Notes under the pieces: generated by a model | The model's database searches: none | What the model saw: only the letters and a program-made list of their open reading frames with translations | Told to the model about the DNA's origin: nothing | Position numbers and translations under genes: made by a program | Shown here: positions 17,985 through 52,556 of the stretch, piece by piece | Layout of the letters: every line of letters starts with the position of its first letter | How positions within the stretch are numbered: the stretch's first letter is position 1 | NCBI GenBank assembly: GCA_018648605.1 | Contig: JABGQU010000002.1 | Coordinates: 1 to 53,228 of the forward strand | Origin: Anaerolineae bacterium | GTDB taxonomy: Bacteria > Chloroflexota > Anaerolineae > Anaerolineales > Villigracilaceae | DNA length: 53,228 nt | Reading direction: 5' to 3'

Positions 17985-19184
17985 ATGAATTCCCCCCACG
18001 CCCTATACTTTCACATCCCATTTTGTGTGCATCGCTGCGCCTATTGCGACTTCAACACCTACGCCGGGCAGGATGCGCTTATCCCCGCTTACGTGGATGC
18101 GCTTATTCGTGAGATAGAACTCGTTGGGCAAGGGGCGCGGGAAAAAGTCCACGCCAGCACTATTTTCTTCGGGGGAGGCACGCCATCTCTCCTGAGCGTC
18201 CCGCAGTTTTCATCCATTTTCGATGCCATTTGCCAGAACTTCGATCTGCACCCCGATGCCGAAATCTCGCTCGAGGCAAATCCCGGCACGCTCACGCGGG
18301 ACTATTTGCAGGGCTTGCGTGATGTTGGGTTTTATCGCCTGAGTTTGGGCGTTCAGTCTGCGCATCCCGATGAATTACAGATGCTTGAACGTATCCATTC
18401 TTACGGGGATGTCGTCTCTGCGGCGTTATCTGCCCGAAAAACAGGATTCGAGAACCTGAGCTTTGACCTGATCTTCGGCTTGCCGGAACAAACGCTCGAC
18501 CGTTGGCAGGCTACCCTTAAATTGATCGTTGGTTTGCGCCCCGAGCATCTCTCGTTATATGCTCTGACTCTTGAGCATGGCACTCCCTTTGGGCGCTGGG
18601 CAGAGCGCGGGCTGCTCCCGCTCCCCGACCCGGATCTGGCAGCGGATATGTACGAATGGGCGAGTGAGTATCTTGCTGGAGAGGGTTTTGAGCAATATGA
18701 GATTTCCAATTGGAAAAAACCGAAACAAGAATGCCAGCACAACCTTCAATATTGGCGTAACCTGCCTTACCTTGGCTTTGGCGCAGGCGCACACGGCTAT
18801 GCCGATAGAATGCGCTACGCAAATGTCTTACGAATCCAGACTTATATTGACCGCTTGGTGAAAAAAGATGCGTCGGCATCTTTCCCGTTTTCGCCAGCCG
18901 CGGTGAGTAAACAGATTGTCTCTGATGAACAAGCGATGCAAGAGCACATGATGATGGGCTTGCGCTTAACGCACGAAGGCGTTGCTAGAGAAACCTTCCG
19001 CACACGCTATGGACATGACGTGGGAGATGTTTTTGTATCTGAAATTGAAGAGTTGATGAAGTATAACTTACTGGAGTGGGGGAAAATAAAAACTTCCGAA
19101 GTTTCTAAAACTTCGGAAGTTCTGCGCCTGACCAAGCAAGCTTATCTCTTAGGGAACCAGGTCTTTCGGCGTTTTGTACCGTAA
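17985..19184 (+). CDS. hemW: radical SAM heme chaperone HemW
   Basis: HemN-like radical SAM protein that carries heme and inserts it into respiratory enzymes. The 4Fe-4S motif is CVHRCAYCDF at residues 19-28, GGGTPSLL follows near residue 65, and the C-terminal HemN domain begins around 300. It lacks the N-terminal residues of true coproporphyrinogen oxidase HemN. I start at ATG 17985 (MNSPHALYFHIPFC, 399 aa); a longer open frame back to 17559 is just the antisense of the HEAT gene. Near the C-terminus residues KTSEVSKTSEV are encoded by a copy of a dispersed hairpin repeat (19091-19121), an in-frame insertion. Confidence 0.93.
   Translation: MNSPHALYFHIPFCVHRCAYCDFNTYAGQDALIPAYVDALIREIELVGQGAREKVHASTIFFGGGTPSLLSVPQFSSIFDAICQNFDLHPDAEISLEANPGTLTRDYLQGLRDVGFYRLSLGVQSAHPDELQMLERIHSYGDVVSAALSARKTGFENLSFDLIFGLPEQTLDRWQATLKLIVGLRPEHLSLYALTLEHGTPFGRWAERGLLPLPDPDLAADMYEWASEYLAGEGFEQYEISNWKKPKQECQHNLQYWRNLPYLGFGAGAHGYADRMRYANVLRIQTYIDRLVKKDASASFPFSPAAVSKQIVSDEQAMQEHMMMGLRLTHEGVARETFRTRYGHDVGDVFVSEIEELMKYNLLEWGKIKTSEVSKTSEVLRLTKQAYLLGNQVFRRFVP
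19091..19121. repeat. hairpin repeat family C, copy 1, inside hemW
   Basis: Perfect 14-bp arms AACTTCCGAAGTTT / AAACTTCGGAAGTT with a CTA loop. The same palindrome recurs at 20450-20483 and 43529-43561, where it is intergenic. Here it is translated as TSEVSKTSEV without breaking the frame. Confidence 0.9.
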
Positions 19185-19199: not shown

Positions 19200-20333
19200 T
19201 TAGGGACGACCGCAATAGCTTATTTCACCAGAATTAGAACTGGTTTGCTTCCATACACACCCCGCAGCTTGACAACTGGCGGCATTATCATGACTTAGAG
19301 GGAATTTGCATTCGACCGTTGTCGTCTCCCCTGATTGTTCTCCCGATTCTCTTGTTGGTGTCGTTGTGCGCGGGCAAAGCTTGGGTTCATATCCCGTTGG
19401 TGTATAGCCAAAAGCTTCGAAACAAGTATTATCGATAAGATAGAGTTCACCAAGGGGGTAGTATTGATTGTCGCGTACGGGGGAGCCAGCATCTTCTGCG
19501 CGGAAACGATCTACATAGTCGAGTTTGCCAACATCGCGCAAGCCCGCGTCTGCCAGTACGCCGAGCATAAATCCGCCATCGGTGAGAGATTTTTTGAAGG
19601 CAAATTGAATTGTCGCGTTTATGCCCGCGTCGCTGCGCACCCACGCCAAGTCGGGATCGGTATCAAGCCCATCACTCAGGTTAAAGATGGGGGTATCGTA
19701 TCCGTTTGTGTCCAAGGGTGCATCGGAATGTCCCGCAGAGAGACCGGCGCTGTCGTGATTGCTATCTTCGATGACTTGAAGAGTCTCATTTGTCCACTCG
19801 CGGGTATAGGGCGGTTGCGCCCATACGATCACGTCACCAAAGCCATCTGTATCATTGTCGATCTCGACCCCGAAATTAATGCCTATCTCGTTATTGGGGT
19901 TTTTTCCGAACATTTCAATGGAAACGTAATACCAGGTTCCATCGCTACTTAAGGTGTACGTCACAATGTCCAGATCGGGAATGTAGGTCATATCTTGAGT
20001 GAAAGGGCGTTCCAGACGGTTGATTTTATATGAATCCCCATAGGGAGCGCGGTTTTCGTTGGCTGTGCCGTGCGAGACAACATCGTATATGATTCCTCCG
20101 CTTGGTGGTGAGGTCTCCGGAAATGCAATATGTACAACTGAAGGGGCGCTCGTTGGAGGCACAAGTGTTGGGGTGTTGATTTCACCTGAGAAATGCGTTG
20201 CTGCGGGAATTGGGGGTGGAAGAAGTGTAGCGGTAGGTGCTGGTTCGCCAGTTGCAATGAAAGGCAGATTGCAGGCAATGATCAATAAACTGAACACCAA
20301 GAGTACAAGGGAAGTGTGTTGGCGGTGTTTCAT
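19200..20333 (-). CDS. secreted lipoprotein, paralogue of the 20546-21655 gene
   Basis: Lipoprotein signal peptide with lipobox LIIAC (Cys21), a Thr/Pro-rich stretch to about residue 75, then a beta-sandwich-like domain with calcium-type acidic runs (GVEIDNDTDGFGDVIVWAQP, SDAPLDTNGYDTP). The C-terminus is a short module with spacing C-x11-C-x4-C-x-W-x12-C. The gene is about 60 percent identical by eye to the next one upstream, so they arose by tandem duplication. AAAGGAG precedes the ATG. Convergent with hemW (15 bases between stops). No named family; an exported binding protein is likely. Confidence 0.8.
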   Translation of the reverse strand: MKHRQHTSLVLLVFSLLIIACNLPFIATGEPAPTATLLPPPIPAATHFSGEINTPTLVPPTSAPSVVHIAFPETSPPSGGIIYDVVSHGTANENRAPYGDSYKINRLERPFTQDMTYIPDLDIVTYTLSSDGTWYYVSIEMFGKNPNNEIGINFGVEIDNDTDGFGDVIVWAQPPYTREWTNETLQVIEDSNHDSAGLSAGHSDAPLDTNGYDTPIFNLSDGLDTDPDLAWVRSDAGINATIQFAFKKSLTDGGFMLGVLADAGLRDVGKLDYVDRFRAEDAGSPVRDNQYYPLGELYLIDNTCFEAFGYTPTGYEPKLCPRTTTPTRESGEQSGETTTVECKFPLSHDNAASCQAAGCVWKQTSSNSGEISYCGRP

Positions 20334-20545: not shown

Positions 20546-21655
20546 TCATGGTGAGACACAGTGATATGCAACGTGAGTAATTACGTTTGGATCTTGCACC
20601 CACGCACAGCTTGCCTGTGTGCAGCTAACGCCATTAGTATACTGGCTGGGATTCGTGCAGCCGGTTTGTTCTGCGGGTGTTTTCTCAGGAGGGGGGCAAA
20701 GTTGTGGCTCATAGCCAGTTGGCTTAAATCCGAATGCTTCGCGGCAGGTATTATCAACGAGATAGAGTTCGCCAAGAGGATAGTATTTGTTGTCGCGTAC
20801 AGGGGAACCTGCATCCTCAGCAAGAAAGCGATCCACATAGTCTAATTTTTCGACGTTGCGTAAGCCAGAATCAGCCAAGACACCGAGCATAAATGAGCCA
20901 TCTGTTAGTGATTTTTTAAAAGCAAATTGGATCGTGGCTTTTAGGCCGGCATCACTGCGCACCCAGGCGAGATCGGGATCGTCTTTGATGTTATTTTCAA
21001 GGTCGAAGAGCGCTGTATCGTAGCCATTTGTATCAAGGGGAGCATCAGAGAATCCTGGGGAAAGACCGGCTGTATCGTGGTTTGTGTCTTTCAAAACCAT
21101 CACGTTATCATTTGTCCAGTCACTGATATAAGGTGGTTTAGCCCAAACGATGGTGTCGCCAAAGCCATCTGCGTCATTATCAATTTCAACGCCATAGTGA
21201 ATGCCAAGATCATTGTTGGGGTTTGTGCCAACCAATTCGATTGAGATATAGATCCACGTCTCATCTTCACTAAGGCTGAATGTGACAATGTCCATATCAG
21301 GGACGTAAGTCATATCCTGTTGAAAGGGACGCTCCAGACGGTTGATATTATAAGAATCTCCATAAGGGGCGCGTTTCTCAGGAGCTGTGTCTTGTGATAC
21401 CACATCATAGACGATCCCTCCGCTTGGCGGGGATGTCACCGGATACAGAATGTGAACTACCGAAGGCGTGCTGGTTGGTGGGATCAAGGTTGGTAAATTG
21501 GACTCGGCAATGAATACCGTCGGTATTGGAGAAGATATAGGGGCAGACGTAGGAACTGCTTCTGGGGGTGAGCTTGCAAAAAATGGAATCGTGCAAGCCA
21601 AGGCAAATAAGGCAATGCTGGAAATGATAGGTATAAGTTTCGTTTTGTTATTCAC
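20546..21655 (-). CDS. secreted lipoprotein, paralogue of the 19200-20333 gene
   Basis: Start is GTG 21655, supported by AAAGGAG at ideal distance. Signal peptide with lipobox LFALAC, Thr/Pro linker with TSAPISSPIPT, then the same beta-rich acidic domain as its neighbour (GVEIDNDADGFGDTIVWAKP, SDAPLDTNGYDTA, KSLTDGSFMLGVLADSGLRN). The C-terminal module has spacing C-x11-C-x4-C-x-W-x13-C. Length 369 aa. It is transcribed in the same direction as its paralogue, 212 bases apart, and divergent from the FGE-type lipoprotein that carries the same C-terminal module. No enzymatic residues recognised. Confidence 0.8.
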   Translation of the reverse strand: MNNKTKLIPIISSIALFALACTIPFFASSPPEAVPTSAPISSPIPTVFIAESNLPTLIPPTSTPSVVHILYPVTSPPSGGIVYDVVSQDTAPEKRAPYGDSYNINRLERPFQQDMTYVPDMDIVTFSLSEDETWIYISIELVGTNPNNDLGIHYGVEIDNDADGFGDTIVWAKPPYISDWTNDNVMVLKDTNHDTAGLSPGFSDAPLDTNGYDTALFDLENNIKDDPDLAWVRSDAGLKATIQFAFKKSLTDGSFMLGVLADSGLRNVEKLDYVDRFLAEDAGSPVRDNKYYPLGELYLVDNTCREAFGFKPTGYEPQLCPPPEKTPAEQTGCTNPSQYTNGVSCTQASCAWVQDPNVITHVAYHCVSP

Positions 21656-29224: not shown

Positions 29225-30112
29225 CTAATTTGATGTGATGAGCGTTCCTATCTTATTGCTTTTAAACGCATTTTTAAGCGCGTTTCCCACTTCTCCGGAG
29301 AAAATCTGTACAGACAATTCGGGAATTTCATCAACAAGCCTTAGCATCTGCCGGACTTTGGAATCCATCCCGCCGGTTACATCGGTTGCAGCGGATGCGC
29401 CAATGCTTGCTTGCATCTGATGAAAGGAAGTGGGCGTAACGCGTGCGACCTTATGCTTGCGTGCTGGAAAATCGGCATATATCCCGTCTTCGAGCCCAGC
29501 CAATAAAATCCGTTGTGGACGCAGCTCCCGCGCGAGGTGCATGAACAAATCTTCGGTCGAGAGAATTGTCCCGCCGCGCAACTCATCGAAGATCACATCT
29601 CCATGAACAACGGGCAGGATACCGTTTAATAGCGCGCGTTTGATCGGCGCCAAATTCCACGCCACCACTTTGCCATCTCGTGCCATTACACTCGCGGAGG
29701 GGGGCATCGCCATTGCGGGGATGTCTGCCTCGCGCAGCGCATCCATGACGTGCTTGTTCAGCGCGGCGGCTTCATGCCAAACTTCTGTGAAGCCGTGCCA
29801 ATACCCCCCCCCTCTACCCTCTCTGTTTTTTACGAAAACAGGGCGGGAGTTCCCCTCTCCCTGAGGGAGAGGGGTTAGGGATGAGGGCTGGGGCGAAATT
29901 TGCAACCCCTCTCTTGTCTTGTACTTTTTTGCCGGAACATGCCCAAAGGACCCGCTACCATGCCCGAGTAAGAGGAGCAAGTTTGGGTCATGTGCGCGCA
30001 CTGTTGCAAGTTGCGCGGTTAATGCTTTTAGGGTTTCTGGTCGCAGTGTGCGGGGCTGCATCTTATCTGTGATCAGCGATCCGCCAAGTTTGAGAAAGAT
30101 CAAGTTTTCCAT
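29225..30112 (-). CDS. isopentenyl phosphate kinase with in-frame repeat insertion
   Basis: Phosphorylates isopentenyl phosphate to isopentenyl diphosphate in the alternative mevalonate route known from archaea and some Chloroflexota. Amino-acid-kinase fold: LIFLKLGGSLITDK at the front, then GHGSGSFGH whose last His is the family-specific catalytic residue, LNGILPVVHGDVIFD, and TDVTGGMDSKV near the C-terminus. Between KKYKTREGL and YWHGFTEVWHEA sit about 33 extra residues (SSLTPLPQGEG, then SRPVFVKNREGRGGG) encoded by a dispersed repeat (29804-29887). ATG 30112 is preferred to TTG 30118. The start is 44 bases from the divergent gene at 30157, so the leader must be very short. Confidence 0.88.
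   Translation of the reverse strand: MENLIFLKLGGSLITDKMQPRTLRPETLKALTAQLATVRAHDPNLLLLLGHGSGSFGHVPAKKYKTREGLQISPQPSSLTPLPQGEGNSRPVFVKNREGRGGGYWHGFTEVWHEAAALNKHVMDALREADIPAMAMPPSASVMARDGKVVAWNLAPIKRALLNGILPVVHGDVIFDELRGGTILSTEDLFMHLARELRPQRILLAGLEDGIYADFPARKHKVARVTPTSFHQMQASIGASAATDVTGGMDSKVRQMLRLVDEIPELSVQIFSGEVGNALKNAFKSNKIGTLITSN
29804..29887. repeat. repeat family B, copy 1, inside the isopentenyl phosphate kinase gene
   Basis: An element with CCCCTCT...CCCTCTCC on one side and GGGAGAGGGG with TTAGGGATGAGGG on the other. It contains internal palindromes TTCG-type around ACGAAAACAGG and CCCTCTCCCTGAGGGAGAGGG (split 29852-29874). A related copy is intergenic at 40163-40239. Here it is read through in frame, adding SSLTPLPQGEG-like residues. 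It includes a run of nine Cs at 29804-29812. Confidence 0.85.
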
Positions 30113-30120
30113 ATTCAAGT

Positions 30121-40110: not shown

Positions 40111-40162
40111 ATATTACCCACTCATGTTACGCAAAAGATGCCTTTTGCAGACTTTCGGGCTG

Positions 40163-40239
40163 CCCTCACCCTCCGCCCTCTCCCAAGGGGAGAGGGGACT
40201 TAATCCTTTCTCCCTTTGGGAGAAGGTTAGGATGAGGGG
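40163..40239. repeat. repeat family B, copy 2 (intergenic)
   Basis: CCCTCACCCTCC at the left end and GGTTAGGATGAGGGG at the right end frame two hairpins CCCTCTCCC..GGGGAGAGGG and CTTTCTCCC..GGGAGAAGG. Related to the copy inside the isopentenyl phosphate kinase gene (29804-29887). Confidence 0.8.
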
Positions 40240-40282
40240 AAACGACAGTCTATCGTTCATCACTCCGTAATATCAGTTACCC

Positions 40283-41060: not shown

Positions 41061-41093
41061 AGACTACAAAAGTCTATAAGACTTTTGTAGTCT
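41061..41093. repeat. hairpin repeat family D, copy 1
   Basis: Perfect 15-bp arms AGACTACAAAAGTCT / AGACTTTTGTAGTCT with an ATA loop, between convergent genes and touching the MFS stop codon. Other copies at 47820-47852 and 52524-52556. Confidence 0.88.
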
Positions 41094-43496: not shown

Positions 43497-43528
43497 GGAG
43501 TGATTTTATCTTAATTCTAGGGATTAAA

Positions 43529-43561
43529 AAACTTCCGAAGTTTTCAAAACTTCGGAAGTTT
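43529..43561. repeat. hairpin repeat family C, copy 3
   Basis: 16-bp perfect arms AAACTTCCGAAGTTTT / AAAACTTCGGAAGTTT with one loop base, followed by Ts. It lies between etfA (stop) and the lipoprotein gene, and matches the copy inside hemW. Confidence 0.9.
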
Positions 43562-46345: not shown

Positions 46346-46526
46346 CCTCTGTCCTATCGGACAAAGTACCCTTCAGGGTATCTCCCCCAAATTCCAACCC
46401 CGCTAACATCCTGCGGGGCAGGAGCGTGGAATTTAGGGGAGACCAGACGGTGAATTTGTTTCTGTCCCCTATTTTGCTTGCAAAATGGGGGACACCCCAG
46501 CGAAGCGAGGGGCAGGGGGCTGAATG
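46346..46526. repeat. repeat family E, copy 1
   Basis: About 180 bases with ordered blocks: CCTCTGTCCTATCGGAC, TCTCCCCCAAATTCC, GGAATTTAGGGGAGA, CCCCTATTTTGCTTGCAAAA TGGGGG (hairpin TTTTGCTTGCAAAA) and GCGAGGGGCAGGGGGCTGAA. The same blocks in the same order occur at 51259-51415. It fills the gap between gcdH and the rnhA promoter. Confidence 0.85.
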
Positions 46527-47819: not shown

Positions 47820-47852
47820 AGGCTACAAAAGCCTTGAAGACTTTTGTAGCCT
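47820..47852. repeat. hairpin repeat family D, copy 2
   Basis: AGGCTACAAAAGCCTT pairs with AAGACTTTTGTAGCCT (one mismatch) around one G. Same family as 41061-41093 and 52524-52556. Between gcdH and the SDR gene. Confidence 0.82.
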
Positions 47853-51258: not shown

Positions 51259-51415
51259 CCCCCTCTGTCCTGCGGACATCTCCCCTTGTCTTTAGGGCAA
51301 ATTCCAAGTGCGTGGGATTTAGGAGAGAAGTGGGAAACTGTATTTTTTTATCCCCCTATTTTGCTTGCAAAATGGGGGGATGCCCAAGTGGAGCGAGGGC
51401 AGGGGGGCTGAACGT
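51259..51415. repeat. repeat family E, copy 2
   Basis: Same block order as 46346-46526: CCCCTCTGTCCTGCGGACAT, TCTCCCC, CAAATTCC, GGGATTTAGGAGAGA, CCCCCTATTTTGCTTGCAA AATGGGGGG and GAGCGAGGGCAGGGGGGCTG. It fills most of the 227-base gap between the KAP-FGE stop and the convergent gene. Confidence 0.85.
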
Positions 51416-52523: not shown

Positions 52524-52556
52524 AGACTACAAAAGTCTCAAAGACTTTTGTAGTCT
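52524..52556. repeat. hairpin repeat family D, copy 3
   Basis: Perfect 15-bp arms AGACTACAAAAGTCT / AGACTTTTGTAGTCT with a CAA loop, same as 41061-41093. It lies between the methyltransferase stop and the phosphoglycerate-mutase-like start. Confidence 0.88.

Follow-up and report, generated by a model that had tools for sequence, protein, structure and literature searches.

The window, a stretch of 53,228 nucleotides from the genome of an Anaerolineae bacterium, carries on its minus strand an isopentenyl phosphate kinase (IPK) gene of the AA_kinase family (29225-30118). The open reading frame is intact and encodes 297 aa; it starts with TTG, and an ATG at 30112 is the likelier start. Within the gene lies an in-frame palindromic insert of 84 nt (29804-29887, minus strand), REPIN-like in its layout of outer arms and two hairpins. 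The initial annotation gave both the coordinates and the content of this insert correctly and the frame indeed stays open through it; the added segment, put there at about 30 residues, is here read as about 28. The kinase blocks were also rightly described as intact on both sides: GGSLIT, HGSGSFGH, GDV, and DVTGGM are present together with the AA_kinase fold, and a single Pfam AA_kinase match (residues 6-264, E 1.7e-25) runs across the insert. No intein domain was reported in the Pfam scan of this protein. The C9 run, which had been named as an indel risk, is accompanied by no sign of a broken gene: the ORF is uninterrupted, and the homologous blocks before and after the insert share one frame.

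The insert has two parts. At 29852-29887 (minus strand) lies a 36-nt core, which fits the pattern CCCTCANCCC-NNN-CCCCTCTCCC-NNN-GGGAGAGGGG with 0 mismatches and reads CCCTCATCCCTAACCCCTCTCCCTCAGGGAGAGGGG on the minus strand. The second half (29804-29851, minus strand) consists, by sequence and fold, of an imperfect hairpin CTGTTTT...AAAACAG and the outer arm TAGAGGGGGGG. As single-stranded DNA the whole insert is predicted to fold into two hairpins on an outer stem (z -3.31).

An AlphaFold2 model of the protein (13-sequence alignment) has a mean pLDDT of 85.7 and a pTM of 0.85. Residues 74-97, within the insert, have a pLDDT below 50 and are flanked by helices 54-64 and 101-128. Foldseek ranks IPK crystal structures first among its matches to the model (best E 2.0e-24), and a sequence search retrieves IPK crystal structures as well (3ll9, E 9.5e-30). 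Given the normal fold, the low-confidence insert, and the IPK structures as top matches, the best reading of the model is that the segment loops out of an IPK fold that is normal in other respects, as had been proposed from the sequence.

The insert had been likened to an intergenic repeat at 40163-40239 (plus strand). The likeness holds for the palindrome, which the two places share. The intergenic copy, in which the two hairpin halves can pair as one long stem (40163-40240, z -4.12 as single-stranded DNA), belongs to a longer MITE-like form (approximately 40125-40272, plus strand) with ends TGTTACGCA and a degenerate TCCGTAATA as judged by eye, but the IPK copy does not. Other long-form copies in the genome often end in TGTTACGCA / TGCGTAACA. 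The words TTACGCA/TGCGTAA stand on one or both sides of 13 of 19 long-form matches, two of which are one place seen on both strands, and 17 of the 19 have no open frame of more than 135 codons across them.

The palindrome itself, searched as CCCTCTCCC-N2-12-GGGAGAGGG, has 22 matches (two overlapping) in the 3.26-Mb genome, while the reversed pattern has 0. The 36-nt core was found with up to 3 mismatches at 6 places in this genome and at 23 places in seven of the nine genomes of the genus, and with up to 2 mismatches in 110 of the 152 family genomes, with 0 to 82 matches each; reversed-pattern controls gave 0 in every case. Match numbers per genome, in these searches and in the phylum sample that follows, are strand matches, so that a doubly tagged palindrome is counted twice. 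In a phylum sample of 400 genomes the element occurs in 56, among them 19 of the 25 from the family and 37 of the 375 others. High match numbers (52-134) were seen in G002, G098, G057, G101, G269, and G327, the last two outside the family.

For closer inspection of the element, all 23 genus places were combined with a single place from each of 30 family genomes. The window and these 53 copies have a CCCTCAYCC-like tag on the hairpin, which in the 53 was part of the search pattern; a GTAG or CGTC tag is absent beside the hairpin in the window and in the same 53 copies, found as they were by a pattern containing CCCTCAYCC. On average 4.3 of the six reading frames of the element are open over the 53 copies, and 3 to 6 of six in the 21 genes confirmed below, figures drawn from a set of loci that favours open ORFs. 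Mostly open frames and a core whose length is a multiple of three would let the element be carried in genes as a peptide and would make many landings readable.

Other repeats are present in the window. A second palindrome family (AGACTACAAAAGTCT...) has three copies (41061-41093, 47820-47852, and 52524-52556), the last of them in a 161-codon stop-to-stop frame. A third (AACTTCCGAAGTT...) has two copies that are 94% alike, at 43527-43560 and at 19088-19121, the latter close to where a 548-codon open frame ends. Identical 26-nt near-palindromes CCCCTATTTTGCTTGCAAAATGGGGG at 46466-46491 and 51353-51378 resemble C-rich hairpins that accompany DUF559 genes. At 19372-20085 and 20694-21407 lie two pairs of long direct repeats, spaced by 1322 and 72-76% alike, which probably represent a tandem gene duplication.

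The element is found in many genes other than IPK. A Pfam scan covered 51 loci (50 and IPK; L192 and L202 were left out of the 53), and in 21 of them homology extends on both sides of the 36-nt element in one frame (L203 and L214 have one side below the cut-off), a count that depends on loci whose ORF is uninterrupted. Homology on both sides was lacking at the remaining 30. Confirmed hosts include ValS, dihydropteroate synthase, PPDK_N, GlyS, M20 peptidase, photolyase, MetH, and an FtsJ/S4 (TlyA-like) methyltransferase. In the genome of the window, five of the six element places are in genes: IPK, TlyA-like, GlyS, MetH, and RlmI-like. The TlyA-like gene and GlyS of this genome contain identical 36-mers (L194, L199). 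Orientation within genes is 15 to 6, a bias that is not significant by an estimated sign test.

Several proteins hold the element at a recurrent position, as judged by eye: OMP decarboxylase at the same place in two genomes, AlaRS at about the same place in two genera, and two Amino_oxidase proteins at about the same place in opposite orientation. A loop in GlyS, obtained from 6 of 7 loci (the anchors missed L392), has 7 aa in one relative and 19-23 aa in five genomes, where it is filled by five different inserts; by eye, that of the window's genome is class A, L393 is class B-like, and L394 looks palindromic (the classes are defined with the IPK loops below). A loop of the TlyA-like protein has 20 aa in one relative and 26-39 in eight genomes, and by eye several of the inserts look like palindromes of class A or B. 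Further inserts occur at hot loops (GlyS L391, L394, and L395; MetH linker L368, L370, L373, and L375), and hot-loop inserts such as SKLNVESSNLEPSNL, VGTGLAPVQ, and QVDTYASTQ look like further in-frame repeats.

The MetH gene of the window's genome (L312, C119:1513-1833) contains more than the palindrome: an in-frame DUF559 domain, covering positions 4-108 of 109 (E 1.2e-36), is flanked by two palindromic elements. DUF559 is similar to 3hrl, an endonuclease-like protein of known structure (E 7.8e-19), and is assigned to the EDxHD / Vsr-like family in the relevant part of PMC9403480. It is present in 119 of the 152 family genomes. In the linker between the pterin and B12-binding parts of MetH, DUF559 was found in 7 of 30 loci, 27 of which could be measured (L380, L383, and L387 had no anchor). 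All seven nuclease-bearing linkers have element hairpins, five of them on both sides and two (L374 and L382, with the anchor inside the nuclease) viewed downstream only. The other 20 of the 27 linkers are without nuclease; 14 have 35-50 residues and six have 55-70, and among the latter L367 has two element hairpins. In a second set of seven MetH loci (four genomes overlapping) elements are seen by eye on both sides of DUF559. Altogether DUF559 in MetH was seen in 10 genomes of several genera, and the same nuclease-bearing linker recurs in L300, L301, L302, L305, L306, L315, and L372. No Hint/intein family was found by hmmscan of the MetH fragments L203 and L204. In-frame DUF559 domains with palindromic elements also occur in other long ORFs, methylase-like by eye (L298, L299, L304), two of which have the elements upstream of DUF559 only.

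Free-standing DUF559 genes were sampled as the best-scoring place in each of 30 genomes. GC hairpins (stem of at least 9) lie within the 250-bp flanks of 10 of these, all with TCCC in the 5' arm, and 20 have no hairpin within that distance. Any such hairpin was found at 5 of 120 IPK genes and in 4 of 400 random windows taken from IPK neighbourhoods, and the element type, defined by TCCC in the 5' arm after the DUF559 flanks had been seen, at 0 of the 120 control IPK genes (250-bp flanks). The window's genome also has a free-standing DUF559 gene with two C-rich hairpins nearby. At least 10 element matches occur in 43 of the 119 genomes with DUF559 and in 0 of the 33 without it (p 4.6e-6, phylogeny uncontrolled); among the 105 genomes that are at least 90% complete the corresponding figures are 36 of 90 and 0 of 15 (p 0.002), a link with copy number that is confounded by phylogeny and completeness. 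These associations suggest, tentatively, that the DUF559 (Vsr/EDxHD-like) nuclease may supply the mobility of the element.

The main rival as mover are the Y1/RAYT tyrosine transposases; DUF559 would then be carried along, with a preference for sites rich in repeats. Of the 152 family genomes 147 have Y1_Tnp matches, and the relevant part of PMC8450116 reports an IS that sits in REPs. However, in a sample of 28 Y1 loci, a subset of the Y1 genes in which strand and position were assumed for the 8 top-scoring, 9 have some GC hairpin in their 250-bp flanks and 0 have one of the element type with a TCCC 5' arm, and the tag of the element is CCCTCAYCC rather than GTAG or CGTC. A lone CCCTCTCCC lies near one of the 8 top-scoring loci. 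With none of the 28 loci carrying an element-type hairpin, Y1/RAYT was set aside as the mover and appears unlikely in this role; of the movers considered, DUF559 is the best candidate.

The IPK loop that holds the insert in the window varies widely among relatives. IPK was matched in 134 of the 152 family genomes; four matched genomes were left out, and the remaining 130 loci gave 124 loops after L075 (in which the insert removed the anchor), L088, L104, L105, L122, and L157 were dropped. The loop has 17 residues in 64 cases and is longer in 60, with a maximum of 56. Homologues with an unrelated loop of similar length had been named in the initial annotation as evidence that would count against an inserted repeat; long loops are indeed common, yet 19 of the 60 have a GC hairpin of their own (stem of at least 7), compared with 2 of the 64 short ones (Fisher 1.9e-5). 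Overall such a hairpin is found in 21 of the 124 loops and in 88 of 3758 overlapping nearby segments of equal length.

About 20 IPK loops have palindromic inserts by eye, of differing classes, in both orientations and in one case nested; for these labels, likewise made by eye, L068, L081, and L115 were dropped from the 21 hairpin loops, and L039 and L065 were added. Class A inserts are like the one in the window, and class B has the layout CCCCCCTC - small hairpin - CTCCCCCC..GGGGGGAG - GAGGGGGG. Class B occurs in both orientations (L055 against L040 in the DNA; L074 from peptide and hairpins), and in L037 a class A element adjoins a class B one. A class B pattern, which nearly equals its own reversal and thus has no usable control, matches 91 of the 152 family genomes, the IPK places of G002, G028, G030, and G033 among the matches. 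The different classes, the two orientations, and the nested case point to several separate insertions, in number left unspecified, as the probable origin of most of these inserts.

Alternatively, a single ancestral IPK element could have been inherited and then diverged, been lost many times, or been overwritten by conversion. In three g7 genomes (L054, L055, L056) the insert is of class B and oriented alike, and conversion between copies is conceivable given that two genes contain identical 36-mers. On a quick single-gene IPK tree built without the loop, in which gains and losses are indistinguishable, presence of an insert takes 16 changes for 20 tips, and with shuffled labels 16-20 (mean 19.1). 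As this equals the lowest shuffled value, some inheritance is indicated; as it is still near the shuffled mean, insert presence follows the tree weakly. The occurrence of both classes and of either orientation at one loop speaks against a single ancestor, as do the 17-aa loops among near relatives in g26, and the ancestral explanation is improbable.

Still less probable is that the loop is a hypervariable region of low constraint that grows by slippage and drift, its likeness to a repeat being compositional. The range of lengths (17-56 aa) would fit this, and 41 of the 60 longer loops are hairpin-free by the test used; some of these may be decayed inserts and others ordinary loop growth. However, the insert of the window fits a dispersed 36-nt pattern exactly where the control gives 0, an identical 36-mer is found in two unrelated genes of the genome, and neither long perfect stems nor opposite orientations and nesting are expected from slippage. 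In g6 a 31-aa loop (PPRATPLVYRRRDDTQ-like), without a hairpin by the test used, is found in 12 genomes (L041-L047 and L049-L053); it is possibly an old, settled insert. Finally, that the insert, as a bypass element or mini-intron, is skipped in the RNA or by the ribosome and is absent from the final protein is very doubtful, for although a stable hairpin within a gene recalls translational bypass elements, no intein domain was reported in the IPK protein or the MetH fragments, and in the 21 confirmed genes an open frame leads through the element and on into the rest of the gene without a shift, a point softened by the open-frame average over the 53 copies and by a set of loci that favours open ORFs.

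The insert in the window is very probably a copy of a short mobile palindromic element whose landing in a tolerant surface loop of IPK preserved the reading frame and which is translated there. The element would be a hairpin with the CCCTCAYCC tag, existing singly or as an inverted pair and entering genes and intergenic DNA alike. Within genes, landings would persist only where they are in frame and in tolerant loops, and selection by loop tolerance would explain the hotspots without a DNA target rule. In IPK the insert would be read as a flexible segment of about 28 residues rich in Pro, Gly, and Arg, and the enzyme would presumably stay active. The recurrence at the same loop, the further target genes, and the DUF559 nuclease had escaped the initial annotation. 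A family of bacteria appears to tolerate short mobile DNA in essential enzymes, repeatedly at the same loops, and homologous proteins would thus differ by peptides of mobile-DNA origin. The loops offer a natural test set for the survival of insertions in folded proteins and for the way loops gain new sequence.

More speculatively, the palindromes and DUF559 might form one mobile system living inside proteins and repeatedly entering the same tolerant loops. Such a system would occur in two kinds, one carrying the nuclease (palindrome - DUF559 - palindrome) and the other small and without it, both read in frame and unspliced, and would be a continuing source of new protein segments in essential enzymes. 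What moves Rickettsia palindromic elements (RPEs) and other coding palindromes has been unclear. If the link with DUF559 is true, it would supply coding palindromes with a mechanism of movement, and endonucleases with a way of residing in a host gene that needs no splicing.

Translated palindromes are already known from the RPEs and from 'REP-decorated' proteins. RPEs are described in the relevant part of PMC10969869 as palindromic repeats that lie in frame in many unrelated genes and are read as peptides. In-frame palindromic repeats in protein-coding genes are found here too, but in another phylum and with a shorter unit (36 nt, or about 84 nt as a pair, compared with about 150 bp in RPEs); in addition, the same loop is reused in several orthologous proteins and there is a nuclease-bearing version. 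The parallel with RPEs drawn in the initial annotation is thus fair for the mode of working but not as membership: by analogy the elements would work like RPEs, and phylum and unit length set them apart. Palindromes in mitochondrial coding sequences have also been reported (PMC6649704, in part).

'REP-decorated' proteins, as presented in the relevant sections of PMC3733652, carry hairpins of 20-40 bp within housekeeping genes, alone or paired as inverted dimers, with a REP at about the same site in recB of two Xanthomonas species; REPs of that kind lie for the most part between genes, bear GTAG/CGTC tags, and are associated with tyrosine transposases. The elements described here resemble them in hairpin size, in single or inverted paired arrangement, and in their presence inside housekeeping genes. 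They differ in the tag, in that five of six copies in the window's genome are in genes, and in that the Y1 loci examined have no element-type flanks. In REPINs, two inverted hairpin units are the mobile unit according to the pertinent part of PMC3116915. Two such units are present at 29804-29887, and the copy at 40163-40239 has two such halves; in contrast, no RAYT association was found at the 28 Y1 loci, and many copies within genes are single 36-nt units. Enterobacterial RU elements, which are MITEs, are described in part of PMC2759123 as small dispersed sequences that maintain ORFs inside host genes. This likeness extends to the present elements, but their in-gene copies lack terminal inverted repeats other than the hairpins themselves, and in the window's genome only the long form has TGTTACGCA ends; no target-site duplication was established. 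Full-length DUF559 as a small nuclease domain at a fixed site in a host gene is reminiscent of EDxHD/Vsr-like homing endonucleases; here, unlike those, it comes with no intein domain in the MetH fragments scanned and is an in-frame extra domain bracketed by palindromes. A search of the open-access literature, judged from its search results, turned up no prior account of such peptides, nor of palindromes accompanying DUF559. What looks new in comparison with these systems is that the same loops are reused by different classes of insert and that a nuclease is bracketed by the same palindromes within a host protein.
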